Shown here piece by piece: positions 590 to 18,561 of a stretch of 33,233 bases of DNA. The notes below the pieces were generated by a model that was given only the letters and a program-made list of their open reading frames with translations, searched no databases and was not told the DNA's origin. Position numbers and translations under genes: made by a program. How positions within the stretch are numbered: the first letter of the stretch is position 1; each line of letters starts with the position of its first letter. Source of the stretch: Zoogloea sp. (GTDB lineage: Bacteria; Pseudomonadota; Gammaproteobacteria; Burkholderiales; Rhodocyclaceae); NCBI GenBank assembly GCA_017309145.1, contig JAFLDU010000018.1:1-33233 (forward strand), in the 5' to 3' direction.

Positions 590-1534
590 CTAGGGCAAGG
601 CCAGAAACGCCCGCAGTTCCTGAACAAAGCGCTCCCGCTGCCCCAGGTGGGGAGCATGGTCCTGCGCGGCATACAGCCGCAGCCAGGATCCTGCCGTCCG
701 GTCCGCCACATAGCGGGCCGTCTCCACCGAATAGAAATTGCTCTCGTCACCATAGACGAGAAAGCTGGGCCGCGTGATCGTCGGCAACACATCGCGGTAA
801 TCCGCCGCGGTCAGGCTCGCCCAGCAGTCGATCAGGGGCTGCGGATCGAGGGCACGCAGGCGCTGGCGGGCCACCTGGATGCCGTTGCCGTTCTCAAGGT
901 ATTTCTCACGGGCCCGGGCGTTATGGCCGAAGGCCGCGAGGCGCAGCACCGCCTCGGCGAGATCTTCCGCCAGCTCGCCCATGAAGGCCGCATTGCGCGC
1001 GGCGTCGAAATCGCCATAGATGCCCAGCTTCCAGCCGGCGTCGGTGAGCAGGCGTGGTGACTGGTCGATGAAGCCCAGGTGGGACACCCCTTCCTCGCCC
1101 CAGTCCCGCAGGTATTGCCAGAGCGTCAGGGCACCCATCGAGTGGCCGATGATCGCCACATCGTCGAGCGCATAGTGCTGGATGAGGTTGCGCAGGTCGC
1201 GGGCCATCCGCGCCGCCGTCGGCGCGGCCTCGACACGAGGCGCGTGGCCGCCATGGCCGCGGGCATCCCAGCGGAAGATGCGGCAGCCGGATTCGAGGGC
1301 CGGTATGAAGGGGGTCCAGTCCCGGTGGGTCGAGGTCCAGCCATGCAGGAGGATCAGGGGACGCCCCTGACCGGAAATGCGGAGGTGGATTTCTTCGCCG
1401 TCATCGGCGACCCATGAGTCAGATAGCACTCTATGGACATGGTCAGAACCCGCGTGAGGAGGGGAGTTGCCCGCCTTCGCCGGATGTCCATGGAGTGCTG
1501 GCGTTTTTGTGCCTTTCGGATTGTGGATGTCCAT
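590..1534 (-). CDS. Alpha/beta hydrolase, 5' end remodelled by island insertion
   Basis: This is an alpha/beta-hydrolase fold enzyme of about 314 aa. Visible motifs are the oxyanion-hole HGW (LILLHGWTS), the nucleophile elbow GHSMG, the acid Asp in VYGDES and the catalytic His in AQDHAPHL. The substrate cannot be read from sequence; peptidase, esterase and lactonase relatives share this layout. The conserved fold starts near SWVADDGEEIHL, about 40 codons after the chosen ATG. The frame stays open upstream to an ATG at 1615, inside the mobile island. The ATG at 1534 lies inside the repeated core CTATGGACAT, and its only upstream SD-like element is a weak GAG. A GTG at 1429 is another possible start but has no SD. 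On the far side of the island (10845-10840, minus strand) an AAGGAG precedes an identical core with ATG, which suggests the original ribosome site is now 9 kb away. The CDS itself is secure; the start is uncertain. Confidence 0.85.
   Translation of the reverse strand: MDIHNPKGTKTPALHGHPAKAGNSPPHAGSDHVHRVLSDSWVADDGEEIHLRISGQGRPLILLHGWTSTHRDWTPFIPALESGCRIFRWDARGHGGHAPRVEAAPTAARMARDLRNLIQHYALDDVAIIGHSMGALTLWQYLRDWGEEGVSHLGFIDQSPRLLTDAGWKLGIYGDFDAARNAAFMGELAEDLAEAVLRLAAFGHNARAREKYLENGNGIQVARQRLRALDPQPLIDCWASLTAADYRDVLPTITRPSFLVYGDESNFYSVETARYVADRTAGSWLRLYAAQDHAPHLGQRERFVQELRAFLALP
1425..1499. repeat. Inverted repeat at left island boundary
   Basis: Arms at 1425-1440 and 1484-1499 match at 15 of 16 positions. 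Read outward they give ATGTCCATAGAGTGCT on the minus strand and ATGTCCATGGAGTGCT on the plus strand. They enclose 43 bases. Both contain the ATGTCCAT core that also marks the inner left end (1526-1536) and the right end (10819-10829) of the recombinase island. They may be extra recombinase binding or crossover sites, or the scar of an earlier insertion. Confidence 0.7.
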
Positions 1535-1536
1535 AG
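1526..1536 (+). other. Candidate left attachment core
   Basis: GATGTCCATAG is identical to the copy at the right end of the island (10819-10829). Its minus-strand reading contains an ATG (1534-1532) in frame with the hydrolase. A near copy, GATGTCCATGG, lies 43 bases further out at 1483-1493. Confidence 0.6.
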
Positions 1537-1595
1537 TAAATCTCGGATTGGTCTGAAAGCCTCGCAGAGAAACTGACGCGCTTCGCGTGTCTCCT

Positions 1596-1623
1596 GGCTC
1601 GTTTGGCTTCGCCAAGCCGAGCC
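1596..1623. other. Hairpin near left island end
   Basis: GGCTCG (1596-1601) pairs with CGAGCC (1618-1623), and TTGGC pairs with GCCAA around a TTC triloop, with a small internal bulge. It lies downstream of the 301-aa cargo gene. It could end that transcript, although no T-run follows on either strand. It could instead be a structural part of the element end. Confidence 0.4.
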
Positions 1624-1644
1624 CAGGTGGAGGTCGTTATGTTA

Positions 1645-1668
1645 CCCCTTGTATATAAATACACGGGG
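1645..1668. terminator. Hairpin downstream of the 301-aa cargo gene
   Basis: CCCC-T-TGTA (1645-1653) pairs with TACA-C-GGGG (1660-1668) with one mismatch, around an AT-rich six-base loop. It starts about 23 bases past the stop of the minus-strand cargo gene, so a terminator role is reasonable. There is no clear U-tract. Confidence 0.35.
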
Positions 1669-1691
1669 AAGGTGTATGAGCTTGATGGGGC

Positions 1692-2597
1692 TTAGCGTAA
1701 TGTTTGCTTAAGCCATTCGGAAAATTCTGGGTCATCGCCCGGATTGGGTGGGTCTATTGGAATGAGCGAGATGTGGCATAACCGAGGGCTTTCATTGAGG
1801 GCACACTCGCTGCCTGCTGGAGAAAGCAAAGGGCCAGAAACAGGTTCCTCCAGAAATGATGCGAGTCCATCAGAGATTTTGATATTGGTGCCATCTAGCC
1901 AGCCGTAGCATCGGCACCCATCCCTAACCACGACTTTTACTTCCTCACACCCAGCCGTCCGTGCTCGGCATAGCGTTTCAAAGCTACGTCTCAAAGTCTG
2001 GCAAGTTTCTAGCACTGCCGGGTGGTAGCGAATCCTCATGGCACTTTGGGCATCTTGCACTTGGTATTTCTCGTCCCACGTGCTGGCTTCTGTGATTTGG
2101 CTTGATGCAAGCCAAAGGTTCTGAATATCTTCAGGAGAGAAGTCTGATACATCTGGAGCAAATGGATAGCGGCTCAGTGCAGACAAGAGAGTCGATGTGA
2201 ACTCTTTGAGGGAGATTGGGTTCGGGGCTCTCAAACGCTCCTGACGTTCCGTGTGACGCTCGTTATCCTTGGTTCGCCGTAGAGCCTCTTCGGGAGTCTC
2301 CTTGTGGTTTATATTGGCATCTACCTTTGCCTGGAGTCGCGCTCTGGCCGTCTGCCATTCGGCTTCGGTACGCACTTCGTCCGCTGAAAGATAGCGCTGA
2401 ACGACAAAGTCCAGTGCTAAGTAATGGTCTTCTTTCGTCCAGCTTTGCGGTGGCAGAGCCTCTAGCCGTGCCTTCACGGTGGCCAACTCTTCTGAGCTCC
2501 AGCGGCGCATAGGGACATCACCGCTTTCCGAGGTATTGTCGGCAGCCGTCCCCATGGAAAGCATGCGCGCGAAGAGTTTTCGTATTTGCCAAATCAT
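1692..2597 (-). CDS. Hypothetical cargo protein, 301 aa
   Basis: I do not recognise this protein. It is soluble, with no signal peptide or membrane segment. Residues 30-135 are highly charged and helical, rich in Glu, Arg, Lys and Ala with several Gln, and look like an extended helix or coiled coil. The second half is mixed and has a Cys group (CRARTAGCEEVKV, then DGCRCYGWLDG) that could bind metal or form a small beta domain. The C-terminus is acidic and Pro-rich (IPIDPPNPGDDPEFSEW). Base composition is clearly lower in GC than the flanking core genes, and the gene lies inside the island. It is divergent from the DUF4236-headed gene, with promoter-like sequence between them. The ATG at 2597 has no strong SD; internal ATGs at 2564 and 2555 are alternatives. 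Confidence 0.7.
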   Translation of the reverse strand: MIWQIRKLFARMLSMGTAADNTSESGDVPMRRWSSEELATVKARLEALPPQSWTKEDHYLALDFVVQRYLSADEVRTEAEWQTARARLQAKVDANINHKETPEEALRRTKDNERHTERQERLRAPNPISLKEFTSTLLSALSRYPFAPDVSDFSPEDIQNLWLASSQITEASTWDEKYQVQDAQSAMRIRYHPAVLETCQTLRRSFETLCRARTAGCEEVKVVVRDGCRCYGWLDGTNIKISDGLASFLEEPVSGPLLSPAGSECALNESPRLCHISLIPIDPPNPGDDPEFSEWLKQTLR

Positions 2598-2599
2598 GG

Positions 2600-2628
2600 T
2601 GTTAACTGGGGGAGCCTAGGCCTATAAT
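2600..2628 (+). promoter_or_regulatory. Promoter in the divergent cargo intergenic region
   Basis: A perfect TATAAT lies at 2623-2628, with a weak TGTTAA -35 about 17 bases upstream. Transcription would begin near 2635, which leaves almost no leader for an ATG at 2638 but a normal leader for the ATG at 2689. The reverse strand of the same bases reads TATTATA, 26 bases before the minus-strand cargo gene, so both genes may fire from overlapping promoters. Confidence 0.5.
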
Positions 2629-2688
2629 ATCATTTGCATGAATTTATCGAACATAGAAAGTGCTGCATGTTCAGCAATGGAGCTTTTC

Positions 2689-4395
2689 ATGGGATTCAGG
2701 TTTCGTCAGCGCATCAAAATTTTCCCTGGAGTGCACGTCAATTTGACTGCCAAGGGAATGAGCAGTGTTTCGATTGGCGGGTCAGGCGCAACCATCAACG
2801 TCGGTAAGAAGATGCGTGTGACAGCGACTGCTGGCCTGCCTGGTACAGGGCTCTCATACCGACAAGTCGTGCACCCTGGAAGCTCGATGCCTGACAAGCA
2901 GAACGTCGAAAAAGCGTCTTCGGTTGTTGAGAGGCAGTTAGAACCGGTGTCGCTTTTGCCAGAACCGTCTGGGCCACAAGAGCTTTCTTATTCTACGGCG
3001 TCATGGGGCGAGAGTTCTACAGAAGAACTCCAAAGCCTGATTTTCGAAGCACATCAACAGCGCCTTTCCTTGGATGCAGAGCTTTCAGAGCTTCGAGCCC
3101 TGGTGCAGGAAGCCGAACGTGGCTTCGAACGAATGAATAAATGGTATCGCCGAATATTTCAACGAGTAGCCATTGATGAGGCCGCATCTAATCTAGCAAA
3201 GCTGCGCGACGATTTGAACGATGCAACACAAGCTGTGACTGACCAAGGCGTTGCTATTGATTGGACATTGCCCGAACGATTGAAGCACCTGTTTCAGGTG
3301 TTTGTCATCTCTATGCGCAAGTTATCGCAACAGTCACAGAGCATCTGGCGTATTGGGGGCAGCACGCAAATCGACCGGATACGAGAGCGAACCTCCTACA
3401 ACACGCTCCATGAACGTGAGCCGGCCTCACTGACTTTTGAGTGCCCGCCATTCATGCCAACCCGCCCAGGGGAGCCCTATGCTCAAGTCCCATGCTTGAA
3501 GGCCACTAACGGTTTTGCCCTGTACTTCTTCCCCAGTTTTGTCGCGGTCGTGCGTGGCTCCGAGTTTGGCTTAATACGGCCAACCAGTTTAGTCATCGAC
3601 ATGGAGTGGACGGATTTTGTAGAAACCGAGGTGCCACCTGGAGCGAGGGTGACCGGCCACACCTGGCGCTACGTCAATAAAGATGGCTCACCAGACCGCA
3701 GATACTCTGATAACCCAAGTGTGCCTATTGTGACGTACGAACAATTGCGACTGACGTCTGAGCTTGCCTTCGATGAAGTGTTCCTATTTACGGATGGCAG
3801 TGCCAACTTCTCATCTTGGGTAGAGATATGCGAATGGTTCAACGATGCCGAGAAAAGGAAGGAGCTTGAGGCCATGCCACAGACTTCGGTGGGATGGCAG
3901 CTTCGAAAAGAAGACGACGCGCACTACATAACCGCCCCGTACAAGGGTGAGGAGCTAATCGGGTTTGGCATCACACACAAAGACGCAAACCTTTGGGTCT
4001 GCCTTTCTGTCAGCCATCTGGGTGTGGAACTTCAACCCGGGACGACCATTCGTTATTGGTTGGATGATGAGCCGCTGGTTGTGGGGGCACTAAGCACATC
4101 CCGAAAGGTTTCGAAGGAGAGTGCAGCTCATCGGGCGTGGCCACAAGATTCAGACTACCCAGAGCCAGCGCCTTTCAAGCGGCTGGCAACTGCTCGAGAA
4201 CTGTTTATTTCTGTTGAGACTGAGGGGAAGCCGGTTTTACAGCTTCGGCTAGCTTTGGCCGGTGTCGCTGGATTCCTAGATTCGATTATTCCCGCTGCTG
4301 TGCACGAGGGGGACATTGGCTTTATCGATAACGAATCCCAAAAAGCAACCGCAACTGCTTGTCGTGATGCAAAAGTCTCCATCGTGGACGGCTAG
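2689..4395 (+). CDS. DUF4236-headed cargo protein
   Basis: The protein is about 568 aa. Its first 60 residues match the DUF4236 pattern: MGFRFRQRIKIFPGVHVNLT, then a GGSGATINVG turn and a GLPGTGLSY end, a short beta-rich module whose function is not established. Next comes a coiled coil at about residues 110-190 (Leu/Glu/Arg heptads), then a long mixed domain with no motif I can name. I chose ATG 2689 because DUF4236 proteins start exactly there, because GGAG lies six bases upstream, and because the TATAAT at 2623 leaves a leader only for this start. An in-frame ATG at 2638 would add 17 unusual residues. No signal peptide or membrane helix is seen. Lower GC and position place it in the island cargo. 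A structural or sensing role is speculation. Confidence 0.75.
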   Translation: MGFRFRQRIKIFPGVHVNLTAKGMSSVSIGGSGATINVGKKMRVTATAGLPGTGLSYRQVVHPGSSMPDKQNVEKASSVVERQLEPVSLLPEPSGPQELSYSTASWGESSTEELQSLIFEAHQQRLSLDAELSELRALVQEAERGFERMNKWYRRIFQRVAIDEAASNLAKLRDDLNDATQAVTDQGVAIDWTLPERLKHLFQVFVISMRKLSQQSQSIWRIGGSTQIDRIRERTSYNTLHEREPASLTFECPPFMPTRPGEPYAQVPCLKATNGFALYFFPSFVAVVRGSEFGLIRPTSLVIDMEWTDFVETEVPPGARVTGHTWRYVNKDGSPDRRYSDNPSVPIVTYEQLRLTSELAFDEVFLFTDGSANFSSWVEICEWFNDAEKRKELEAMPQTSVGWQLRKEDDAHYITAPYKGEELIGFGITHKDANLWVCLSVSHLGVELQPGTTIRYWLDDEPLVVGALSTSRKVSKESAAHRAWPQDSDYPEPAPFKRLATARELFISVETEGKPVLQLRLALAGVAGFLDSIIPAAVHEGDIGFIDNESQKATATACRDAKVSIVDG

Positions 4396-4582
4396 TCTGC
4401 TGCCCCTAATCTGTCATCCGGAGTAACCAAAATGACACACTGGACGTATGCCAGCGGGCGGCTTGAAGCCCGGAACACGGTCGGTACTTTACTGCTGGCT
4501 ATCCCGGCGGCGACGATGCGGGCATGCTTTGCGGTCCTACTGAATGTGAACCGCGCTTTAAGTCAGCTAATACTGACTGGGT

Positions 4583-5128
4583 ATGGCTATGCGACGCGAT
4601 AAGCGAGCGAATGAGCCGGTGGGGTATGTTGAGCACGCTGAGGAACTTAATGAATTAGCGAAGCACGCCCTTCGACTCGAAAGTCGTGATGCTACATATC
4701 TCGCTAGAAAAATTTCTCTTGGCCTGTCGCTACAAGCAATCGAACTCGCGGGAAAAGGGATTCTGTTTTCCTTAGGGCAAAGCACGAGGGAAATTCGCCG
4801 CAACCATAAGTGGCACAAATTGCCTGAACTGTTGCGGGCGGCGGAGCGGGCGCTACAAACCCGCCCAGAAGAGGAGTTCAGGAAATACCATCACTTTACT
4901 CTTTGGGTACCCACCATTGACGGCATCGAGTTTTATACGACAGTAGCAGCATATTTTGAGGCACACTTTAGTCGAGGCTCCTCCGCAGAGCCGCGCAGCT
5001 ATTTCTACCCGGACGAGCCCGTATTCACCGGGCCGAAACCTATTCAGGCAATTTGCATAATTGCTGATTACCTTATTAAGGTTGCTTCAGAAGTCGAGTC
5101 ACTTATCGAAAGCATTCGCGCACAATAA
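4583..5128 (+). CDS. HEPN-like domain protein, possible AbiV relative
   Basis: This 181-aa all-helical protein resembles HEPN domains of the AbiV type. A first helix (AEELNELAKHALRLES) is followed by ARKISLGLSLQAIELAGKG, where small residues and an E..GK pattern match the second HEPN helix. Next is REIRRNHKWHKL, which contains an R-x5-H that could be the RNase motif R-x4-6-H. HEPN proteins often cleave RNA in toxin-antitoxin and phage-defence systems; AbiV blocks phage translation in lactococci. The second half (residues 100-180) is less recognisable. The gene stands alone on the plus strand with 187 bases before it, including a perfect six-base stem (AGTCAG/CTGACT, 4561-4578). ATG 4583 has only a weak GGGT upstream; ATG 4589 is equally possible. 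The family call is inference. Confidence 0.65.
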   Translation: MAMRRDKRANEPVGYVEHAEELNELAKHALRLESRDATYLARKISLGLSLQAIELAGKGILFSLGQSTREIRRNHKWHKLPELLRAAERALQTRPEEEFRKYHHFTLWVPTIDGIEFYTTVAAYFEAHFSRGSSAEPRSYFYPDEPVFTGPKPIQAICIIADYLIKVASEVESLIESIRAQ

Positions 5129-5302
5129 GGCGCGCCAGGCAGCATGCTTTATCTTGGCTTTTGAACGTCTGCTTCTCCGAACTTGCAATTGCCGCTTAGG
5201 GTCGGAGTGAGACTATATATGCTTATGGCTTAATCCGAAAAATTGTGGCAGTCTGTTTTTATTAAAGCATGATTACCGCGTCAGCCACGGATTACGGATA
5301 CG

Positions 5303-5743
5303 CTATTTTTCTTGGGGAGCTTGAGTCCTCCTAAGGTCAACAACGGTAGGTTTCGGCTCCTTTCTGAGAAGCTCATCCAGTTGGCTGCGTAACTCTAAGA
5401 TGGTCATATCCGCTTCGCTGAGCTTGCTTGCGAGGATGTCCCGCTGGAGAGAAACCTCGGCCAGTCGCTCCTTCAGACTACGGTTCTTATTCTGTCTGGC
5501 TATACGAATTTGGCGGGCTGAGGCAGGTTTTATGTCTTCCTGACTGGATACGAACTGTTGAATTTCAGCAATTAAGGTTGGAAACCTGCTTTTCTTGAGA
5601 GCGCTTGGATCGGTCCCAGCTTCCCGGGCGACATTGTTCTGAGTGACCGGCGTGCCTTTGGAGAGCCGTACCGGCATATTGGATTTAAGGCGCTCGAAAG
5701 CAGCACGGTATTGGTCGGCTGCACTTTGTTGTGGGTTATTCAT
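5303..5743 (-). CDS. Small coiled-coil protein, TnpC/DUF6262-like
   Basis: The 146-aa product follows the third recombinase and overlaps its 3' end by eight bases. The N-terminal half has a helix-turn-helix flavour (VTQNNVAREAGTDPSALKK), where a plant-like TQ-N-VA-EAG-DPS pattern could contact DNA. The second half is a Leu-rich coiled coil (residues 90-135). Tn554 TnpC and DUF6262 proteins have this size, layout and position. Tn554 TnpC is an accessory that influences transposition efficiency and orientation, so a DNA-binding helper role is likely here. The ATG at 5743 fits the overlap arrangement; the frame remains open upstream to 5959, but that part shadows the recombinase gene. It is the last gene of the four-gene recombination operon and converges on the HEPN-like gene. 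Confidence 0.75.
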   Translation of the reverse strand: MNNPQQSAADQYRAAFERLKSNMPVRLSKGTPVTQNNVAREAGTDPSALKKSRFPTLIAEIQQFVSSQEDIKPASARQIRIARQNKNRSLKERLAEVSLQRDILASKLSEADMTILELRSQLDELLRKEPKPTVVDLRRTQAPQEK

Positions 5744-7760
5744 ATTTGCGTGTTGCACGGTAGTAGCTCTCCACACTACGTTTCTGGGCTTCAAGTGCTG
5801 CTCGTAAAGGACTGTCGGCAGGTGCCGATTGAAGGCGCTCGTTGAGCACACTCTCAAGCTTGGATACTTGTGACAGCTTGCTGCGGTCATACAAGACATC
5901 AGCACATGGCTTTGGGGCGTCACCTCCGCCGCAGTGAGCGATAGACTCGATGCCTCCATAGGGACAGGGCACCTTATTCATGCAAACCCCCAAGATAATC
6001 TCCCTGCAAGCAACGCCTCCTTTTTTGGCTAGACGTACAGATGCCTTAAGGTCGTCAGGCGAAATGAGCCGCACAATCTCCTCCTTGCGCCGCTCGCCGT
6101 GAGGACTGACAAAGCGGTTGCTGGCCAGTTGCTGAAGTTCGCGGCCAAGAACCTCGTACATTGTCTGGATGTACAGCGTCCGCGCAGATTCATCCAGCCG
6201 AATTTGTGCGTGATTTTGCCCGTAGTACAAGGACATGGCTCGTGACACATGTTTGAGCTGGAATTGGAGCGAGGCGTCTGAAACCATGCCTGATGCTTGC
6301 ATGTTGACGGCCCCCGTACGCCGAAGCTGATGCCATGCCAAAGGCCAAATGCTTCCAACAGCAAATGTTTCGGGAAGGGATGGTGTTGCTAGGCGAGCCA
6401 ATTCAAGGTCTCGCTCAGTGATGCGAAGTTCCTCTGGGTCGAATAGTTTTGGATAGCTCTCGACCACAAAGCAGTATCTCTTGAGGCGGGAGTGTACAAA
6501 TTCGTCCACCGCTCTAGCTCCTCCTGCCCAGGGCTCATTTTTTCGCCAGTACAGAGGAGTTCTATCGGGCACTCGGCTGGCACAAAGCCGGCGTAATTTC
6601 CCAACTGCCTGAAGTGCTGTAATGGCAATTTCGACCGAGGGGGCAGTAATCCAGATTGCTTCGTCATCGGTAACCGTTTTCGATGTTTTGCCTTGGATGA
6701 CATGGATTGGCCCAAAGCGAGGGTCCTTCTCAACCCTTAGGCAGTCAGCGGCAAGCGAGAGTGCCTCGTCACTACGCATAAGCGTGAAGTTAAGGATATA
6801 AGCTAACCCCACATAGGAAACCATGGTCAGATAGGCAGAAAGGGAGTCAACCGAAAGCGGTAGCAACTGGGTTTCTGCGCGTTCTCCAAGCCACCTATAG
6901 ATAAGGTCCGCGATACCAAAGCGTTCGGCAGTCTCGTGAAATGGGCCGAGAAACCGGCAACCGGGCTTGTCAGCACGGCCACCTTCGGGCCAATAGAATG
7001 GGCGAAGCTCCCCCTTGCGTTCACTATCTTTCGCTCCCTCCAAGCTGCCGTAATTGGTGATGTAGGCATCGAGGGAGAAACAGTAGCAATTTGTCAGTTG
7101 TTCTTGGTGCTGGAGAAAGTCATCCAGACATGCCTTGAGTCGACTTATCTGATACCGCCAAATGCGGGGAGGAATATACGGAGTCTGCCTGCCTTGATGG
7201 GCGGGTAGAGCTGCTGCCAGGCGGGCGATACCTGCCTCATCCAGCAAGGTAAACCCGAGCTTTTCTCTAACGGCATACAGCTCATGCAACAGAGATAGAA
7301 TTGCCCCGGCCATAGAGGGCATCAATGCCCCTGCCAATTTGTCAGCAACCAAGGGAAACCTGGTTAAATTGGAAGCCAGGATGCCTTCGGTTGCGCACAG
7401 GGCGAAGATGGGGCGCAGAGCACTGAAGCGAGTGAGCAGTGTCCTCGCTGCTTGAATTCCACCGGGGCCATACAGCCACCAGCCGACCACTTTTCGCAGC
7501 AGGTCGGCATTGGGTTTGTCTATAGGGTCAGTTCTTTCGACGAGGCCGTCCCCGAAATTTAGGACCATGCGCTGCTTGGCCCATGAATCGAGCACCCAAA
7601 CGGAATCACGCCAGCGTGTAATTACCTTTCCATCGGCGTCTTGAATGATGGGGATGTCGTCGCTTGGAGGCCAGTCTGAAGGGCGATAGAGACCTTCTTG
7701 CGGGCTAACAAGAGGGGAGTCAATGGCAGGCGTGGTCAAGGGAATGCGTGAGCCCATCAA
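5736..7760 (-). CDS. Tyrosine recombinase, third of trio (674 aa)
   Basis: This is a large tyrosine recombinase with an intact catalytic set: Arg329 in FTLMRSDEALSL, a possible Lys in the QGKTSK hairpin, His477 and Arg480 in WHQLRRTG, His504 in LKHVSR, and Tyr512 or Tyr513 in SLYYGQ. These residues cut and rejoin DNA through a 3'-phosphotyrosine. A C-terminal extension holds a Cys/His cluster (about residues 585-618; CREIILGVC, CPYGG, HCGG, C) that looks like a zinc ribbon, then a helical tail. Size and tail recall Tn554 TnpB-type recombinases. The start overlaps the stop of the second recombinase by four bases (ATGA), implying coupled translation. Confidence 0.88.
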   Translation of the reverse strand: MMGSRIPLTTPAIDSPLVSPQEGLYRPSDWPPSDDIPIIQDADGKVITRWRDSVWVLDSWAKQRMVLNFGDGLVERTDPIDKPNADLLRKVVGWWLYGPGGIQAARTLLTRFSALRPIFALCATEGILASNLTRFPLVADKLAGALMPSMAGAILSLLHELYAVREKLGFTLLDEAGIARLAAALPAHQGRQTPYIPPRIWRYQISRLKACLDDFLQHQEQLTNCYCFSLDAYITNYGSLEGAKDSERKGELRPFYWPEGGRADKPGCRFLGPFHETAERFGIADLIYRWLGERAETQLLPLSVDSLSAYLTMVSYVGLAYILNFTLMRSDEALSLAADCLRVEKDPRFGPIHVIQGKTSKTVTDDEAIWITAPSVEIAITALQAVGKLRRLCASRVPDRTPLYWRKNEPWAGGARAVDEFVHSRLKRYCFVVESYPKLFDPEELRITERDLELARLATPSLPETFAVGSIWPLAWHQLRRTGAVNMQASGMVSDASLQFQLKHVSRAMSLYYGQNHAQIRLDESARTLYIQTMYEVLGRELQQLASNRFVSPHGERRKEEIVRLISPDDLKASVRLAKKGGVACREIILGVCMNKVPCPYGGIESIAHCGGGDAPKPCADVLYDRSKLSQVSKLESVLNERLQSAPADSPLRAALEAQKRSVESYYRATRKYE

Positions 7761-9475
7761 ATTACGATACCCATTTCATTGATTTGAATAAGTCCATCCC
7801 AGGCCGGATGGTAAGCACCTTCTTCGATTCGAAATAGCGCCTCTTTAACCCAGGCGCCCCGTACTTCGCTGCTGCTTTCCAAAAACTGAAGCTTGTGGGT
7901 TACGCGTGTGACGACTGCCAAGGCAGGATGGGCTTCAATAGAGGCAGATTTGCCTTCTGGGGGCCGATGCCGGGCTAGCTCAATTGACTTCAGGTGGCGG
8001 AACGAAGCGAGAGACCAAATATGGTCGCTGCTGTCGATGTCTCGATGGTTATTGCAGAACAAACATCCGGCGCCAGAGGTGCAATCAGGGGCTGGTGTTC
8101 CCGCCGGAAGTTGCTCTTCAGCTCTGGGGACAGGGTTAACGCAACAGCCTGGCCCTGGAGGCACAAATGACGGGTCATTGCGCTCGTGGAAGCGGCTGAT
8201 TTCAACCATGGCCACCTGTGGGTGTGGCTCAGCATAGTTTCGAATAAGAGTTTCTACGTCATGCTGGGCGATTTCGGCCACGGCATCGGGTGATGCCATC
8301 TGCCGTAGAAGCCAGTTGACACGCCCTTTTCGTAATATGCGAGGACTGAAATATGGCACAGCCAAGGTTTTGGCGATTCTGCGTACTTGTGAGAATTCGG
8401 GTGGTCGCCAATGAATACGGCCGGCCAAGATAAGTGGAAAGAGGCGCTCGTCATCTAAGTCGCCGAACCAGTCATTCCGCCAACGAAGATAGTTTTCAAA
8501 ATGGGCACGATATTCCCCAAATATCTCGAAGAGGACCGTTCCCTCACGACGGGCCTTGTAGCTCAGCACTTGGTAACCATCCAGATGGCTGGCGTACCGG
8601 TAGTTGTCTAGTCTTAGTGAATAGGCTTGCTGAAGATTCATGCCGGTCTGGGCGATAAACATCAGCAATTCAGCTTCAATCCGTAGATTCACCAGCGGGC
8701 CTCTGGTGCGCAAGGATTTATCTTCAATCCAGGCTGTGCGCTTTTCCGCCGATATTTTCTTTTCTCTATTGTGCCGAATTGTTGTTCGCGGCTGGGCTCT
8801 AGTAGGTTTTGACAGTCCTGACCATAGCTCAATTTGTCCACTTCGAAGTTCAAGAACGAGTGGCAGGTTTCCTTTTATGCTCGAGGTCGAAAGGCTGATA
8901 CAGAGGTCAGTGACGAGGTGTCCAAAGCGGAACATTGCCGACAAATCTACCTTGCTTGCAGCAGAAGTATTGAAGCGTTTAGCCGACTTTGGTTTTCGGA
9001 TGCGGGTTTCTTTCAGGATAGAGTGTTTGCGCCCCAGAACCGGGTTCAGGATGGCGGCAAGATGAGACGCCCAACTGTGTAGAGTGATTTTGGTGGGGCG
9101 TCCGTCGATGCGCTGCCGTTGCTCCAAGTGTGCCGCCCACTTCAAGTAGACATCAGCAACCTTCTCAAGGTGGATTGGTGTGTCTGTGATGTCCACCCAG
9201 GAGAAGAAAGTGCGTAGGGCAGCTATCCGGCTATTTACCGTTTGGATACTGCCTCCACCAACTAAACAAGCAACCAGTTCTTCATGAACTTTAATTGCCA
9301 GGGTGAACCGATCGGTTAACGGGTTACCAAGGTCATTGTTAGCTATATGGTGAGATAGCCTATTTGCTTTTACTTCGGAACCGCCTTTGTACAAAATGAA
9401 ATCTAGGGTCCATGGAGTCTGTTTCGGCCCGAACTCGACCATCGGGAACGTCAGGCTTGGCAAAGTGTTCTGCAT
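7757..9475 (-). CDS. Tyrosine recombinase-like protein, degenerate active site
   Basis: The middle trio protein (572 aa) has the recombinase fold pattern but unusual catalytic positions. Box I reads QTGMNLQQAYSLRLD, with Asn280 where the first catalytic Arg is expected. Box II reads RILRKGRVNWL, with Arg379 in place of the usual His before Arg382. His405 and the probable nucleophile Tyr414 (HDVETLIRNYAEP) remain. A Cys cluster follows (Cys444, Cys445, Cys465, Cys471, Cys474; CLFCNNH), probably a zinc-binding element. The N-terminal 150 residues resemble a SAM-like core-binding domain. It may assist strand exchange or synapsis more than catalyse it, or use a variant active site. The start codon shares one base with the preceding stop (TGATG), and the stop overlaps the third recombinase. 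The frame is fully open, so this is a lineage feature rather than decay. Confidence 0.85.
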   Translation of the reverse strand: MQNTLPSLTFPMVEFGPKQTPWTLDFILYKGGSEVKANRLSHHIANNDLGNPLTDRFTLAIKVHEELVACLVGGGSIQTVNSRIAALRTFFSWVDITDTPIHLEKVADVYLKWAAHLEQRQRIDGRPTKITLHSWASHLAAILNPVLGRKHSILKETRIRKPKSAKRFNTSAASKVDLSAMFRFGHLVTDLCISLSTSSIKGNLPLVLELRSGQIELWSGLSKPTRAQPRTTIRHNREKKISAEKRTAWIEDKSLRTRGPLVNLRIEAELLMFIAQTGMNLQQAYSLRLDNYRYASHLDGYQVLSYKARREGTVLFEIFGEYRAHFENYLRWRNDWFGDLDDERLFPLILAGRIHWRPPEFSQVRRIAKTLAVPYFSPRILRKGRVNWLLRQMASPDAVAEIAQHDVETLIRNYAEPHPQVAMVEISRFHERNDPSFVPPGPGCCVNPVPRAEEQLPAGTPAPDCTSGAGCLFCNNHRDIDSSDHIWSLASFRHLKSIELARHRPPEGKSASIEAHPALAVVTRVTHKLQFLESSSEVRGAWVKEALFRIEEGAYHPAWDGLIQINEMGIVI

Positions 9476-10734
9476 CAGGTGCCTATTCCCGCGAAAGCCT
9501 TGGTAAACTCATTGGCGGCCGCCCGCTTTGCAGGTGTCGAGGCGATGAATTTGATGTATTTGAACGAAGTTGCTTCATCTTTGTGTAGCAGAGCGTTCTT
9601 CACCAATGCAATGGCATTGATGGGTTCGGTAGTTTTCAGCGCAAGCGTAGCTACCTCCGTAGCGAACGTGCATCGGGACTGGTGAAAATGGAAGGATTTG
9701 AGAACCTTGAGCCCAGCCGCAACGCCATTGCGCCGAAGGGTCGCCATCTCTGTATTGATGGCACTCGATTGCTCTGTATCACGCCGGCAATAAGGATTCC
9801 CGAATCGTGTAAGGAACAACAACCCTCTGTCACCCGGCTGGGCCTCCGCTTGCCGCTTCGAGCGTCGGAGTGAGGTCGCGTATTCCAGAAGGTCGTCCAG
9901 AAGAGCCCTCGGAATCCATACATGGCCTGTTACGCCAAATTTTGTATTCACGGGTGGCGAAGCGCTTGGGCCGAGAGCAAGACGCATCAACCCAGGTGCT
10001 TCGGGGTCCGGAACTGCATTCTTTAATGTCTGAATCTTGAGGTCACAAATGCTGCCAATACGCATTCCCGTGAAGAAACCAAGAGCGAGCATCCGGTAAA
10101 GTTCTGGAGAGGCATTGTTCTTTGCGAAATCGAGTATTAGTTCGCGGTCCTCAGCAGATACGGGGAGTAACCCATCTTCCAGGAGAACCCCGGGGCGCTT
10201 GCGGTTCGGAATCGCTAGGTCTGTCGAGACCTGGACCATAGTTCTTTCGAAGCCGACAGCATCGAAGTATTGGATGTATACCGCCCTATCCTGCCAGAGC
10301 TGCATGTCGGGGTCCAACAACCCTTTAGCCCTAGCCCAACGGTAGAACGAAACGGCATTCCGCATGTATTCCGATACCGTGGATGGCGACATCAATCCGG
10401 CATCTCGAGCCTCAACTAAGCTGCCCCGGTACTGAACAAGGCATCGGTTAGCTTTCCGGACAGGGAAAGCTAACCACAGGAGGTCATGCTCCTCTAGGAA
10501 GTTTGCGTAATGTAGTAAGCCATTAAGATTGCCAGCGACTGTCTTCAGCAAAGCTTCGTTGCTGGAGGCCCGTTCCAGTGCCCACAAATTGGCCTCACGC
10601 CAAGGAGAGCCGTCTGCCCAAAACAGCTGCGGCAGCCCAGCTATAACGCGCCGGCTGCTTTCAGAATACGACACCGTTCCATCTTCAACCACGATGGTTT
10701 GCGGCATGTAGCGGATACGTTCTAAGGTCGCCAA
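9475..10734 (-). CDS. Tyrosine recombinase, first of trio (419 aa)
   Basis: This is a canonical tyrosine recombinase/integrase. Motifs are Arg225 in FFTGMRIGSICDL, His351 and Arg354 in FHQSRCTF, His384 in LLHKDE, and the nucleophile Tyr393 in FKYIKF. An N-terminal SAM-like domain (residues 50-170) should grip the DNA arms. It is the promoter-proximal gene of the recombination operon and lies about 85 bases from the right attachment core, as is usual for integrases. The TTG at 10734 has GGGG five bases upstream; an ATG at 10707 would remove nine residues and has no SD. A weak promoter-like pair (TTGGTT, 18 bases, CATAGT) precedes it on the minus strand. Its size matches TnpA of Tn554-type elements. 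Confidence 0.9.
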   Translation of the reverse strand: MATLERIRYMPQTIVVEDGTVSYSESSRRVIAGLPQLFWADGSPWREANLWALERASSNEALLKTVAGNLNGLLHYANFLEEHDLLWLAFPVRKANRCLVQYRGSLVEARDAGLMSPSTVSEYMRNAVSFYRWARAKGLLDPDMQLWQDRAVYIQYFDAVGFERTMVQVSTDLAIPNRKRPGVLLEDGLLPVSAEDRELILDFAKNNASPELYRMLALGFFTGMRIGSICDLKIQTLKNAVPDPEAPGLMRLALGPSASPPVNTKFGVTGHVWIPRALLDDLLEYATSLRRSKRQAEAQPGDRGLLFLTRFGNPYCRRDTEQSSAINTEMATLRRNGVAAGLKVLKSFHFHQSRCTFATEVATLALKTTEPINAIALVKNALLHKDEATSFKYIKFIASTPAKRAAANEFTKAFAGIGT

Positions 10735-10818
10735 GAAATCCCCATTCGACTATGTTCCGTCGCCAGAAAAAGAACCAAGAACCCGACGACGTGTCCATGC
10801 TATGTCACTTGGTGATTA

Positions 10819-10829
10819 GATGTCCATAG
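10819..10829 (+). other. Candidate right attachment core
   Basis: GATGTCCATAG repeats the left core exactly. Its minus-strand ATG (10827-10825) is followed by only two codons before TAA, and a good SD (AAGGAG, 10845-10840) lies 12 bases ahead of it. Additional half-copies (TGTCCAT at 10792-10798, ATGTCA at 10802-10807) lie just inside and could be recombinase arm sites. Confidence 0.6.
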
Positions 10830-10919
10830 GGTGTAACTACTCCTTAGCGAGAAAGTGGTCCATGGTTCGGGCCCGTCACGTGGAAGGCCCGCAGTTTACC
10901 GGAGAGTCCGGGGCCGCAA

Positions 10920-13868: not shown

Positions 13869-14417
13869 CTAGGATGACTTGAGCATCAGAGGCAGGCCGG
13901 CGGCCACGAAGGTGACCCGCGGACAGGCCGCCGCCACCGCCTGATTGAGCCGCCCCGCCTCGTCACGGAAGAGCCGTCCCAGCGGGGTTTCCGGGACCAG
14001 GCCGAGACCGACCTCGTTGGCCACGAAGATCACCCGCCCCGGCAGGGTGGGGATCAGTTCGAGCAGCGCAGCGCGCTCTTCCAGCAGCCGCGGCAGGCCC
14101 TCGGCGCCCACCCCGGGCGGCAGGGTCTCGGCCCCTTCCAGCAGGTTGGCCAGCCACAGGGTCAGGCAATCCACCACCACGCAGCGGTCTGCCCGGGCTT
14201 CCCGGGCGAGGGTCCGGGCCAGCCCCCGGGGCGCCTCGACCACCCGCCAGCCGGCGGGACGATCGGCCTGGTGGCGGGCGATACGGGCGGCCATCTCGGC
14301 GTCCAGGGCCTCGGCGGTGACGATCACGCTGACCGCCAGGCCCGCCGCGCTGGCCAATGCTTCGGCGTGACGGCTCTTCCCCGAACGGGCACCACCGAGA
14401 ATCAATTCACAAGGCAT
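13869..14417 (-). CDS. cobU: Adenosylcobinamide kinase/guanylyltransferase CobU
   Basis: A bifunctional enzyme (CobU/CobP, 182 aa) that phosphorylates adenosylcobinamide and attaches GMP to give adenosylcobinamide-GDP for CobS. The P-loop GGARSGKSR is at residues 8-16. The HQADRPAGWRVVEAP segment carries the His that takes GMP in the family. DCLTLWLANLL and VANEVGLGLVPETP are further signatures. Length is normal. It is the first gene of the minus-strand cobalamin unit and diverges from the btuB riboswitch leader. The SD is weak (GAAAG). No second riboswitch is visible on this strand, so feedback control would need another route. Confidence 0.95.
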   Translation of the reverse strand: MPCELILGGARSGKSRHAEALASAAGLAVSVIVTAEALDAEMAARIARHQADRPAGWRVVEAPRGLARTLAREARADRCVVVDCLTLWLANLLEGAETLPPGVGAEGLPRLLEERAALLELIPTLPGRVIFVANEVGLGLVPETPLGRLFRDEAGRLNQAVAAACPRVTFVAAGLPLMLKSS

Positions 14418-14478
14418 AAGAGGCTTTCAAAAGTTCCGTGCACGTAAACCAGTTCATGGAAGTCCATGATTTTGGTGG

Positions 14479-14484
14479 TATTAT
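14479..14484 (+). promoter_or_regulatory. Possible -10 element of the btuB leader
   Basis: TATTAT lies just before the long leader that contains the cobalamin riboswitch. A -35 is not clear; TTCATG at 14453-14458 is 20 bases away, which is too far. The leader from here to btuB would be about 420 bases. It starts with an eight-base stem, GCCTGCCG (14493-14500) with CGGCAGGC (14526-14533). Confidence 0.35.
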
Positions 14485-14542
14485 CGCAGCCTGCCTGCCG
14501 ACGGAACTTGAGACTTTCCATTTCCCGGCAGGCAAACGTGCT

Positions 14543-14760
14543 CCAGGTGCTCCACGGGCTTTCCAGCCCAGGAGTTAAACGGGAAACAGGTGAGCGCGCT
14601 TCATCATCGAAGCTGCAATGCCTGTGCTGCCCCCGCAACGGTAAGCAAGCGCAAGGTGAGTCATTCCGCCACTGGGCCTCCGGCCTGGGAAGGCGACCCA
14701 CCGCGTCCGGTCCGGCATCCGCCGCACCGGCACAGCTTGCGAGCCCGGATACCGGCCTCG
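14543..14760 (+). ncRNA. Cobalamin riboswitch
   Basis: The conserved blocks of the B12 riboswitch occur in order: GGTGC (14546-14550), TTAAACGGGAAACAGGTG (14575-14592), CTGCCCCCGCAACGGTAAG (14627-14645), the B12 box CCGCCACTG (14667-14675) followed by GGGAAGGCG, and AGCCCGGATACCGGCC near 14742-14757. Adenosylcobalamin binding should reduce expression of btuB and the genes behind it. It stands 150 bases upstream of the btuB start, on the same strand. Confidence 0.93.
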
Positions 14761-14843
14761 ACCACACGATAAGCGGAAGTGCCACGGGGTGGTGGCGACG
14801 AGCGCGGTCATGGTGTGTCCTCCTGGCCTTTCTCCCTGTCTCC

Positions 14844-14899
14844 CCCGGCGCCTCCAGACGCAATCCACCCGGAGGCGGGGACGCCGCCGGGCCAGGGAG
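14844..14899 (+). promoter_or_regulatory. btuB: Leader stem next to the btuB ribosome site
   Basis: CGCCTCC (14848-14854) can pair with GGAGGCG (14871-14877), and outer CCCGG/CCGGG bases (14844-14848, 14887-14891) can close the same stem. The btuB SD, GGGAG (14895-14899), follows at once, nine bases before the ATG. Together with a GCCAC/GTGGC hairpin at 14781-14796 this is a plausible expression platform acting on translation. No U-tract terminator is seen. Confidence 0.4.
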
Positions 14900-14908
14900 A
14901 TTCCTTCG

Positions 14909-16735
14909 ATGACCATCCGCCTTTCCGCCACCGCCCTCGCGGTCGCTGCCGCATTCCCCTTCGGCTTCGCCCTTCCCGCCCTCGCCGCCTCCGTCGAGCA
15001 GCCCACCGTGGTGGTCACCGCCACCCGCCAGGCCCAGCGCGCCGATGAGGCCCTGGCCGATGTCACCGTGATCGACCGGGAACAGATCGAGCGGTCCGGC
15101 CCCAGCTTCTCGCTGCCCGAGCTGCTGTCCCGCCAGCCGGGCATCCAGATCACCAACAGCGGCGGCCCGGGCAAGGCCACCGACGTGTTCATCCGCGGCA
15201 CCAGCAGCAAGCACAGCCTGTTGCTGGTGGACGGCATGCGCGTTGGCTCCGCCACCCTCGGCACCGCCGCCTGGCAGGACATTCCCCTGTCTCAGATCGA
15301 ACGCATCGAGATCGTGCGCGGCCCCGCCTCGGCCCTCTACGGCTCCGATGCCATCGGCGGCGTGATCCAGGTGTTCACCAAGAAAGGCAGCGGCGCGCCG
15401 AAGGTGGACGCCTACCTCGGCGCCGGCAGCTACGGCACCCGCGATGTCTCGGCCGGCGTGTATGGCGGCACCGAGAAGCTGTCCTACGGCCTGCGCGGCG
15501 CCTACACCGAGAGCAAGAGCTACAGCGCCATCTACAGCAAGGCCAAGCAGCCCTTTTATTACAACGGCGACAAGGATCCGTACCGCAACAGCAGCTTCTC
15601 GGGCAACCTGAGCTACCGTCCGACAGCCGGCCACGAGCTGGGCGCCACCGTGCTGTATGCGGAATCGCGCAACCACTACGACTCCGGCGCCGGCTTCGAC
15701 AACTACGCCAACAACGTCACCAGCGCCTGGAACATCTTCAGCCGCAACCGCCTGCTCGACAACTGGACCAGCACCCTGCGCTTCGGCCAGTCCATCGACG
15801 ACGCCCAGAACTTCGCGTCCTACGCGCCCAATGGCGCGACCATCAAGACCACCCAGGACCAGCTGATCTGGCAGAACGACATCGGCCTGCCGGTCGGCAC
15901 CCTGCTGGCCGCCTACGAAAACCTGCACCAGAAGGCGGTCAACGAAGGCACCTTCGATGTGGGCCGCAGCATCAACTCGGCCCTGCTGGGCTGGACGGCC
16001 AGCTTCGGCGCCCACAAGATCCAGCTCAACGCCCGCCACGACGACAACAGCCAGTACGGCGGCAAGACCACCGGCTACGCCGGCTACGGCTACCAGATCC
16101 TGCCCAGCCTGCGGGTCCAGGGTAGCGTCGGCTCCGCCTTCCGCGCGCCGACCTTCAACGAGCTCTACTACCCCGGCTTCGGTAACCCGAACCTCAAGGC
16201 CGAGAGCGCCTACAACAAGGAAATCGGCCTGCTGTGGGAGAAGGCCGGGCACAGCCTGAGCGCCACCTACTACCGCAACCGGATCAGCAACCTGATCGCC
16301 AACGACCAGAACTTCATCCCCCAGAACATCGCCAATGCGCGCCTGGAGGGCATCAGCCTGGGCTACGGCGGCCAGCTGGCCGGCTTCGACCTGAACGGCA
16401 GCATCGACTTCCTCGACCCCGAAGACCTGGACACCGGCAAGCGCCTCCAGCGGCGCGCCAACAAGACCGCCAACCTGGCCGTCACGCGGCGCTTCCAGGC
16501 CCTCACCGTGGGCGCCGAATGGCAGGGTGCCGGTGGCCGCTACGATCGCGCCGCCGAGATCAACCCGATGGGCGGCTACGGCATCCTGAATGCCTTCGCC
16601 AAGTATGCGGTGAGCCACGAGTGGGCGCTGGAGGCACGCGCCAACAACCTGCTCGACAAGCAGTACGAGACCGTGCGCGGCTTCCAGACGGCCGGCGCGA
16701 ATGTCTTCTTCGGCGTACGCTACGCACCGAAATAA
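14909..16735 (+). CDS. btuB: TonB-dependent vitamin B12 receptor BtuB
   Basis: An outer-membrane receptor of 608 aa that takes up cobalamin and other corrinoids using energy from TonB. The first 27 residues form a signal peptide ending ALPALAA. A TonB box-like PTVVVTATR follows, then the plug domain with QIERIEIVRGPASALYGSDA and the GVIQVFTKKG end. The remainder shows alternating beta strands rich in Tyr, Asn and Gly, as in a 22-strand barrel. The C-terminal strand ends FFGVRYAPK rather than in a terminal aromatic residue. I chose ATG 14909 because it opens the signal peptide and follows GGGAG; the frame extends upstream to 14789 only through leader RNA. Riboswitch control and the following btuC and btuD support the substrate call. 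Confidence 0.95.
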   Translation: MTIRLSATALAVAAAFPFGFALPALAASVEQPTVVVTATRQAQRADEALADVTVIDREQIERSGPSFSLPELLSRQPGIQITNSGGPGKATDVFIRGTSSKHSLLLVDGMRVGSATLGTAAWQDIPLSQIERIEIVRGPASALYGSDAIGGVIQVFTKKGSGAPKVDAYLGAGSYGTRDVSAGVYGGTEKLSYGLRGAYTESKSYSAIYSKAKQPFYYNGDKDPYRNSSFSGNLSYRPTAGHELGATVLYAESRNHYDSGAGFDNYANNVTSAWNIFSRNRLLDNWTSTLRFGQSIDDAQNFASYAPNGATIKTTQDQLIWQNDIGLPVGTLLAAYENLHQKAVNEGTFDVGRSINSALLGWTASFGAHKIQLNARHDDNSQYGGKTTGYAGYGYQILPSLRVQGSVGSAFRAPTFNELYYPGFGNPNLKAESAYNKEIGLLWEKAGHSLSATYYRNRISNLIANDQNFIPQNIANARLEGISLGYGGQLAGFDLNGSIDFLDPEDLDTGKRLQRRANKTANLAVTRRFQALTVGAEWQGAGGRYDRAAEINPMGGYGILNAFAKYAVSHEWALEARANNLLDKQYETVRGFQTAGANVFFGVRYAPK

Positions 16736-16756
16736 GAGCACATGCCTGGAGGGACG

Positions 16757-17782
16757 ATGGCCCAAGGCCACAGCGCAACACCTATCGCGAGGGGCGGCAT
16801 GCCGTCCCAGCGGCGGCGCGCCATGCAGGTGCTGGCCGGCCTCGTCCTGGCCGCGCTGGCGGCCTTTGCCTGGTCCCTCACGGCCGGTGCGCTGCCGGTC
16901 GGCCTCAATGATCTGCTCGGTGCCCTGGGGGGCGGAGACGGCAGCATGGAGGCGGACATCATCCGCAGCCTGCGCCTGCCCCGCGCGGTGGCGGCCTTCG
17001 CCTGCGGCGGCCTGCTGGCCCTGGCCGGCGCCCTGATGCAGGTGCTGCTCCGCAACCCCCTGGCCGACCCCTATGTGCTCGGCATCTCGGGCGGCGCGGC
17101 GGTGGGGGCCCTGGGCGCCATCCTGGCCGGTGCCACCGCCGGCTGGATCGACGGGGGTGCCTTCATCGGCGCCCTCGGCGCCACCCTGCTGGTTTTCGGG
17201 CTGGCCCACGGCGATGGTTCGTGGACCCAGACCCGCCTGCTCCTCACCGGGGTCATCGTGGCGGCGGGCTGTGGTGCCGCCGTGGCCCTGATGCTCAGCC
17301 TGGCCCCGGAGGGGCGGGTCAAGGGCATGCTGTTCTGGCTGATGGGCGATGCCAGCGGTGCGACCCGCCCGTGGCCGGCCCTCGGACTGCTGGTCGTCGG
17401 CCTGGCCAGCGTGCTGCCCTTCGCCCGGGAACTCAACCTGCTGTCCCGGGGGGAGATCACCGCCCGCGCCCTCGGCGTGCGGGTCACCCGCCTGCGCGGG
17501 CTGGTCTATGGGCTGGGCTCCCTGCTCACCGCGGTGGCGGTCACCACGGTGGGCTCGGTGGGCTTCGTCGGCCTCATCGTGCCCCACCTGGTGCGCCTCG
17601 CCATCGGCAACGACCAACGCCTGCTGCTGCCGGCCGCCACCCTGGCCGGTGGCGTTTTGCTGTGCGCCGCCGACACGGCGGCCCGCACCGTGGTGGCCCC
17701 GATCCAGCTCCCCGTCGGGGTGCTGACCGCCCTGATCGGGGTGCCGGTCTTCCTCTTCCTGCTGACCCGGCACCCGCGATGA
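16757..17782 (+). CDS. btuC: Cobalamin ABC transporter permease BtuC
   Basis: FecCD-family permease of about 341 aa with roughly ten hydrophobic helices. Landmarks are RLPRAVAAFACGGLLALAG, QVLLRNPLADPYVLGISGGA and the C-terminal VGFVGLIVPHLVRL, the standard landmarks of BtuC/FecD/FhuB proteins. With BtuD it moves corrinoid from the periplasm to the cytoplasm. The start at 16757 follows GGAGGG with tight spacing; an upstream ATG at 16742 lacks an SD. The stop overlaps the btuD start by four bases. The substrate comes from context (riboswitch, btuB, cobO), since iron-siderophore permeases look alike. Confidence 0.93.
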   Translation: MAQGHSATPIARGGMPSQRRRAMQVLAGLVLAALAAFAWSLTAGALPVGLNDLLGALGGGDGSMEADIIRSLRLPRAVAAFACGGLLALAGALMQVLLRNPLADPYVLGISGGAAVGALGAILAGATAGWIDGGAFIGALGATLLVFGLAHGDGSWTQTRLLLTGVIVAAGCGAAVALMLSLAPEGRVKGMLFWLMGDASGATRPWPALGLLVVGLASVLPFARELNLLSRGEITARALGVRVTRLRGLVYGLGSLLTAVAVTTVGSVGFVGLIVPHLVRLAIGNDQRLLLPAATLAGGVLLCAADTAARTVVAPIQLPVGVLTALIGVPVFLFLLTRHPR

Positions 17783-18561
17783 AGATGGACGTACGCCCCC
17801 CCGTGCTGGCGGCCGAGCAGCTCACCGTCCATGTGGGCCGGCGCGACGTGCTGCGGGACCTGAACATCACCGTCCAGCCGGGCGAAACCCTGGTGATCCT
17901 GGGGCGCAACGGTGCCGGCAAGACCACTCTGCTGCACACCCTGGCCGGCCTGCGCGATCCGGCCCGCGGCCTGGTGCTGTTGTCCGGCCAGCCCTACGCC
18001 GCCTGGCCGCGGGGCCACGAGGCCTGCCTGCGCGGCCTGCTGGCCCAGAGCCAGCCCGACTTCTTCAGCGCCTCGGTGCTGGAGACGGCCCTGGTGGGGC
18101 GCCACCCCTACCTGGGCCGCTGGGACTGGGAGCGCCCCGAAGACGAGGCGATCGCCCTGGCGGCCCTGGCCAGCATGGGCCTGGAGGGCTTCGCCGAGCG
18201 GCAGGTGCCCACCCTCTCGGGCGGCGAACGCCAGCGCCTGGCGATTGCCGCCCTGTTGGCCCAGCAACCCCGCCTCTATCTGCTGGACGAGCCCCTGGCC
18301 CACCTCGACCTGCATCACCAGGTGGCCGTGCTCGACCACTTCCAGGCGCTGGCGGCCCAGGGTGCCGGGGTCGTGATGGTCCTCCACGACATCAACCTGG
18401 CGGCCCGCTACGCCAGCCATGTGCTGCTGCTGGATGGCGCGGGCGGCCATGTCTTCGGCGCGGCCCATGACGTACTGACCACCGAACGCCTGTCCAGAGC
18501 CTTTGGCCACCCCCTGAGAGCCGTTGCGGACGGGGCCCAGACCCTGTTCGTACCGACCTGA
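17779..18561 (+). CDS. btuD: Cobalamin ABC transporter ATPase BtuD
   Basis: An ABC ATPase of 260 aa that powers BtuC. Walker A is GRNGAGKTT (about residue 42), the Q-loop follows in LAQSQPDFF, the signature is LSGGERQRL, Walker B is LYLLDEPLAHLDL and the switch His is in VLHDINLAARYA. It begins at the ATGA overlap with btuC; the long open frame upstream is an off-frame shadow of btuC. Related heme and siderophore ATPases (HmuV, FecE) share this pattern, so the specificity comes from context. Confidence 0.93.
   Translation: MKMDVRPPVLAAEQLTVHVGRRDVLRDLNITVQPGETLVILGRNGAGKTTLLHTLAGLRDPARGLVLLSGQPYAAWPRGHEACLRGLLAQSQPDFFSASVLETALVGRHPYLGRWDWERPEDEAIALAALASMGLEGFAERQVPTLSGGERQRLAIAALLAQQPRLYLLDEPLAHLDLHHQVAVLDHFQALAAQGAGVVMVLHDINLAARYASHVLLLDGAGGHVFGAAHDVLTTERLSRAFGHPLRAVADGAQTLFVPT

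Follow-up and report, generated by a model that had tools for sequence, protein, structure and literature searches.

The question raised by this locus is what kind of mobile element is formed by four overlapping genes, three of them recombinase-like, on contig JAFLDU010000018.1 of Zoogloea sp. (assembly GCA_017309145.1, which is 89.07% complete with 5.87% contamination in 416 contigs). The stretch analysed, referred to here as the window, comprises positions 1 to 33,233 of the contig. The four genes constitute the recombination module of a 9.4-kb element that also carries cargo and is located in the start of an enzyme gene of its betaproteobacterial host, and the initial annotation suggested that such a combination may be a distinct element class. 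Judged from its sequence, the element appears instead to be a member of the already described SE class, a reading to which we assign a probability of about 90%.

The four-gene core and its family

The core genes are all on the minus strand in the order intA-tfp-intB-srap, and the neighbouring open reading frames (ORFs) overlap by 1, 4 and 8 bases, as had been described initially. The first, intA (9475..10734), encodes a tyrosine recombinase of 419 aa, tfp (7757..9475) a recombinase-fold protein of 572 aa with a variant active site, intB (5736..7760) a large tyrosine recombinase of 674 aa, and srap (5303..5743) an auxiliary protein of 146 aa with N-terminal helices and a long C-terminal helix. 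For srap, the ATG at 5743 gives the 8-base overlap, and a 218-aa ORF from 5959 represents a longer reading that runs into intB. The comparison that identifies the family is with SE-PaeBT2436, which was named by the Tfp-Srap pair WP_034039553.1 - WP_023443007.1 (PMC10214605). On plasmid pBT2436 (L056), these two proteins are encoded by the second and fourth genes of an operon of four genes in the same order, and the identities to the window proteins are 63% for IntA, 50% for Tfp, 56% for IntB and 57% for Srap. The catalytic pattern is also the same, although SE-PaeBT2436 differs in its cargo, tmexCD3-toprJ1, and in its host class. Thus, the class is not a new one, because all four proteins match those of SE-PaeBT2436 in the same gene order, which is the outcome that the initial annotation had itself named as speaking against its proposal.

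The proposal of a separate class of four-gene element had drawn on the dissimilarity of the module to known transposons, and that part of it is borne out, the module being a single mobile-type unit with cargo that is neither plainly Tn554-type nor a plain recombinase trio. Tn554-type elements likewise have a TnpC-like counterpart of the fourth gene and a 6-bp footprint, but they possess two recombinases (tnpA, tnpB and tnpC only) and no counterpart of Tfp, whereas the window has the extra tfp gene (PMC10214605). Recombinase in trio (RIT) elements likewise have three consecutive recombinases, but the described three-gene module is without a fourth gene, whereas the window has srap (PMC10214605). 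However, sequence, layout and ends all place the element within the SE family, and with the proposal refuted by the SE-PaeBT2436 match, a new class is scarcely credible.

The active sites were then read residue by residue. The statement that three genes carry recombinase boxes stands in full for the first and third, since IntA has the complete R-K-H-R-H-Y set (R225 K265 H351 R354 H384 Y393) and IntB the complete R-H-R-H-Y set (R329 H477 R480 H504 Y512/Y513); it requires correction for the second, Tfp, in which Arg II, His III and Tyr are present, but Asn (N280) replaces the first Arg and the box-II His is absent. This pattern was compared across 77 loci obtained by scanning genome contigs with a profile built from an alignment of ten Tfp proteins, a scan that remoter SEs would escape. 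All four core genes were present in the same order and strand in 70 of the 77 loci, with one or two genes missing in the other 7, indicating that the arrangement is not due to chance. With gapped cells left out of the counts, the six IntA residues were conserved in all 74 loci having intA. In Tfp, the first-Arg position was Asn in 75/75 scored rows (2 gaps) and the box-II His was absent from all 76 scored rows (1 gap), and Arg II (76/76, 1 gap), His III (76/77) and Tyr (77/77) were conserved. In IntB (76 loci), the first Arg was found in 74/74 rows (2 gaps), His II, Arg II and His III each in 73/73 (3 gaps), and the two adjacent Tyr positions in 72/73 and 73/73. The second protein of SEs is described as being without the RHRY motif (PMC10214605), and the window likewise combines a Tfp without this set with two recombinases that have it, an ordinary one and a large one. 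The retention of Tyr, His III and Arg II in Tfp is our own reading of the present alignments.

The same residues bear on the GInt (ginABCD). This type of genomic island encodes three integrases and a helix-loop-helix protein, carries cargo, and undergoes site-specific excision and integration. GInts likewise consist of a four-gene operon with cargo, site-specific insertion and imperfect flanking repeats (PMC5385486), so that the window element agrees with them in gene number, operon structure, the small fourth gene, the cargo placed after it and insertion at a gene's 5' end, and betaproteobacterial hosts have been reported (PMC5385486, PMC10214605). A GInt was in fact our first assignment, and it was dropped once the SE-PaeBT2436 accession pair was found to match genes 2 and 4. 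In GInts, GinA and GinB are complete and it is the third protein, GinC, that is without the first Arg (PMC5385486), whereas here the third protein has it (R329) and the Asn (N280) is in the second. Therefore, the layout is that of an SE and not of a GInt, because Tfp has the variant site and IntB the first Arg in all scorable rows. In addition, the closest match named by accession is an SE, and blast searches by the SE authors are reported to have revealed no similarity between SE and GInt genes (PMC10214605). A GInt is accordingly very unlikely.

IntA also has weak relatives on 208 plasmid records, and no operon of GInt layout was found among the five that were examined from the 60 listed (L135 and L139 being judged by annotation only). 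The plasmids of Stutzerimonas (L136) and Paraburkholderia (L138) contain deeper four-gene operons of SE-like layout that are distant from that of the window. In both, the Tfp match is to gene 2 and the IntB profile match to gene 3, which also has recombinase boxes, and a gene 4 matching Srap was seen only in L138. In a Vibrio operon (L137), the second gene is annotated in two pieces, neither of which matches Tfp.

General family databases contributed little to the assignment of the core proteins. The sole Pfam match was that of IntA to phage integrase, at 26.9 bits against a cut-off of 27.1, no NCBIfam match was obtained for the four proteins at E up to 1, and no significant hit came from PDB sequences searched with the profiles of IntA, IntB and Tfp. 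The predicted structure of Tfp (mean pLDDT 81.1, pTM 0.59) matched XerA, XerH and Cre by Foldseek with a best E of 1.4e-4, at low query-normalised TM scores of 0.18-0.30. That of Srap (mean pLDDT 87.9, pTM 0.50) consists of one 53-residue helix and three shorter helices, in line with the helix-turn-helix flavour and coiled coil initially ascribed to the fourth gene, although no significant Foldseek match to the PDB was found (best E 0.95).

Ends, spacers and the interrupted hydrolase gene

The whole element was delimited at 1413..10846 (9434 bp, minus strand), with the intA end at 10846, the distal end at 1413 and a boundary uncertain by about 1 base, based on the empty site in congeneric genomes and on similar ends in Dechloromonas sp. 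CZR5 (L057, NZ_VUYQ01000011.1). Its GC content is 52.6% compared with 67.8% outside. The target is an alpha/beta-hydrolase gene (Pfam PF12697), of which the body (590..1412, minus strand) is cut off from the start codon at 10861-10863, and the unoccupied target of congeneric genomes places the insertion point at codons 5-6. ATG-GAC-CAC-TTT-CTC-GC stays on the intA side, where homologues of cobC and cobS are the host neighbours, and the other end restarts at CGATGACGG. A strong hydrolase match (E below 1e-100) was found in 20 of 22 congeneric genomes, G007 and G008 having none, and 19 of the 20 stretches were compared, with G002 left out because its match contains stops. The N-terminus was intact in all 19, being of the type M-x-x-F-x-(A/T)-D-D-G, and neither element end matched these stretches or the G002 locus (L020) by blastn. 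In one of these genomes (G011, L025), cobC adjoins the hydrolase gene, and both window flanks join within a few bases.

At the two ends, motif C (10820..10846, minus strand), the intA-proximal arm of a terminal inverted repeat, pairs with the distal arm, motif C' (1413..1440, minus strand). Joined end to end, the two termini of the window element give an imperfect inverted repeat on either side of a 6-bp spacer; its local score of 15 was matched by 3/5000 shuffles and by 0/5000 random pairs from the element; the corresponding score for the CZR5 ends was 13, matched by 1/5000 shuffles and 7/5000 random pairs. A terminal iteron of nine bases, YATGGACAY (10791..10799, minus strand), recurs at 10820, 1527 and 1484 and is inverted at 1432, so that all five copies in the window are within the two element ends. 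The CZR5 locus has five copies as well, of which one lies outside the element and the other four in its ends. The attL spacer, TCTCGC in minus-strand reading (10847..10852), adjoins motif C and is identical in the unoccupied G011 gene, and the attR spacer, GGTCGC in the same reading (1407..1412), adjoins motif C' and is unlike it. In the CZR5 element, the spacers are CCTGGC beside C and GCTTGC beside C', and thus attL and attR are unequal in both elements compared. The attR spacer of the window may be a footprint left by an earlier donor site. The SE footprint rule would predict such unequal spacers, which are seen here in two elements whose boundary is placed to within about one base. Taken together, the three published SE criteria (PMC10214605) are represented here, because the split attB is kept in attL and attR, the joint contains an imperfect inverted repeat, and there is a 6-bp spacer, the placement of which is accurate to about one base.

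The distal end was also inspected for other functions. The AT content of 1413-1691 is 45.5%, compared with 47.4% for the element and 32.2% for the host flanks, a short AT-rich 3' end being a trait of GInts. An in-frame extension of 67 codons, common to the window and the CZR5 element, was considered as a replacement start for the hydrolase and was rejected; there was no sign of coding constraint, because 16 of 21 changed codons were nonsynonymous and third positions were not favoured. The window end (1413-1680) also contains GC-rich hairpins (around GGCTCGGCTTGGCGAAGCCAAACGAGCC) that are conserved in the CZR5 element.

Regarding movement, the sequence itself gives the four genes and their layout, the catalytic pattern, the target, the ends with their inverted repeat, the spacers and the change of cargo, and what each protein does, the strand bias, the circle and the copy-out route are carried over from other SEs in the literature. 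For SE-6283 and SE-6945, published studies described the exchange of one strand between attL and attR, a nicked double-stranded circle, the transfer of the donor's left-flank 6 bp into the new attR, and a requirement for IntA, IntB and Srap (PMC9345347, PMC10214605), and SEs have been termed putatively non-mobilizable by their authors (PMC10214605). By analogy, IntA and IntB would be the catalytic recombinases, Tfp a partner that has the recombinase fold but a variant active site, and Srap an auxiliary and probably DNA-binding protein, all acting at both ends through motifs C and C' and the iterons. The exchange of one strand between attL and attR would then release a circular copy carrying the 6 bp adjoining C, and upon integration, which in the window would have taken place at codons 5-6 of the hydrolase gene, the carried 6 bp would end beside C' in the new attR, with the target's own 6 bp beside C in attL.

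Several points weigh against assignment to the SE class. Neither a circle nor an empty site in the strain itself nor a strand bias was observed, and the spacer placement has a possible error of about one base. The first position of the target motif is unmatched by either attR spacer, and that of the window is also unmatched at the second. The GInts are set apart by their published description, and the SE survey in print reports no SE in Betaproteobacteria (PMC10214605). It could also be that the element is a decayed, immobile remnant, in keeping with the single copy found in the 89% complete host assembly and with movement not having been observed. However, the four frames are open, IntA and IntB have full sets of catalytic residues and both ends are recognisable, which makes a remnant highly improbable.

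Distribution of SE-type elements

Membership in the SE class extends the reported hosts. The survey, which covered the complete RefSeq genomes of 2020, found no SE in Alpha- or Betaproteobacteria (PMC10214605). The window host, which belongs to the same GTDB family as Uliginosibacterium aquaticum (listed among the Betaproteobacteria by NCBI taxonomy), is outside the reported range (Gammaproteobacteria), which is a reported range and not a mechanistic definition. Among the 77 Tfp-profile loci, some of whose records are metagenome bins, 39 are from Gammaproteobacteria, 36 from Betaproteobacteria, one is labelled Streptomyces and one is unassigned, and 32 of the 36 betaproteobacterial loci contain all four core genes. 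The gene tfp was found in 2/149 relatives and in 5/369 genomes of the GTDB class, three of them weak, the host genome itself being included in both counts, and it matched 93 of 72,556 plasmid records. As far as we have seen, the betaproteobacterial SE-type elements are beyond the printed range, although later reports elsewhere are possible.

A quick tree of IntB (81 rows, SH-aLRT support only, rows under 550 aa left out) indicated that the Betaproteobacteria label, carried by 33 rows, requires 7 changes, at least 5 of which are forced by well-supported (starred) branches. Betaproteobacteria alone make up five starred clades, each with 3 to 8 rows, among them the clade of the window, whose own row is unlabelled. 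Therefore, the betaproteobacterial elements are not derived from one recent transfer, because the label needs several changes and the separate clades are supported. The survey inferred host-dependent movement from the absence of SEs outside Gammaproteobacteria (PMC10214605), an argument that needs revision because betaproteobacterial SE-type elements fill several well-supported clades of this tree. It may be that SEs are an old and diversified family of beta- and gammaproteobacteria and that Tfp, with its nucleophile retained, is a conserved and not a dead variant (Asn - no His - Arg - His - Tyr), which may join strand exchange, the strand bias possibly arising from the pairing of complete and variant sites, a proposal that we hold tentatively, at somewhat under even odds. 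The conserved Tyr makes the role of Tfp directly testable by mutation.

The same four-gene order with different cargo, which the initial annotation had proposed to look for, was found in another genus. The Dechloromonas sp. CZR5 element has core DNA 88.4% identical to that of the window over 5564 bp, is inserted at the same hydrolase codon and has similar ends, and it differs in length (9930 bp) and in its cargo, which on inspection of the ORFs by eye reads as an ars gene cluster. Sharing a target codon and a nearly identical core but not their cargo, these two elements offer a clean test system for the 6-bp footprint rule.

Cargo genes and related records

The cargo of the window consists of three genes, none of which was recognised as a transfer gene. 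That at 4583..5128 (plus strand) encodes 181 aa, for which Pfam, NCBIfam, PHROGs, PADLOC and plasmids gave no match, and that at 1692..2597 (minus strand) encodes 301 aa with no convincing family match in Pfam, NCBIfam, PHROGs or PADLOC. The third, at 2638..4395 (plus strand), encodes a protein of 585 aa with a DUF4236 N-terminus (Pfam PF14020, E 1.9e-18; phrog_17982, E 1.7e-45); its PADLOC match was weak (E 0.0013) and was not accepted. Partial relatives of this protein occur on 2693 plasmid records, none of them reaching 80% coverage.

The CZR5 cargo at 14289-18295 of its locus reads, again by eye, as an arsenic-resistance cluster with ArsR, ArsC, an ACR3-type pump, ArsD and ArsA. The same strain has a second, different SE-type operon (L093, NZ_VUYQ01000001.1) with a short IntB frame, in which Srap was not found. 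A search with Srap in its 218-aa reading matched 101 records, which is not a clean count because the first 72 residues of the query overlap intB in another frame. The locus labelled Streptomyces (L081, Streptomyces sp. IBSBF 2953) contains an SE whose IntB is identical to two Pseudomonas rows, and for this reason the record is probably contaminated. Finally, a Tfp with 47.5% identity to that of the window is encoded in a 14-kb phage record, MT835978.1 ('Bacteriophage sp.'), which is perhaps an SE mistaken for a phage.

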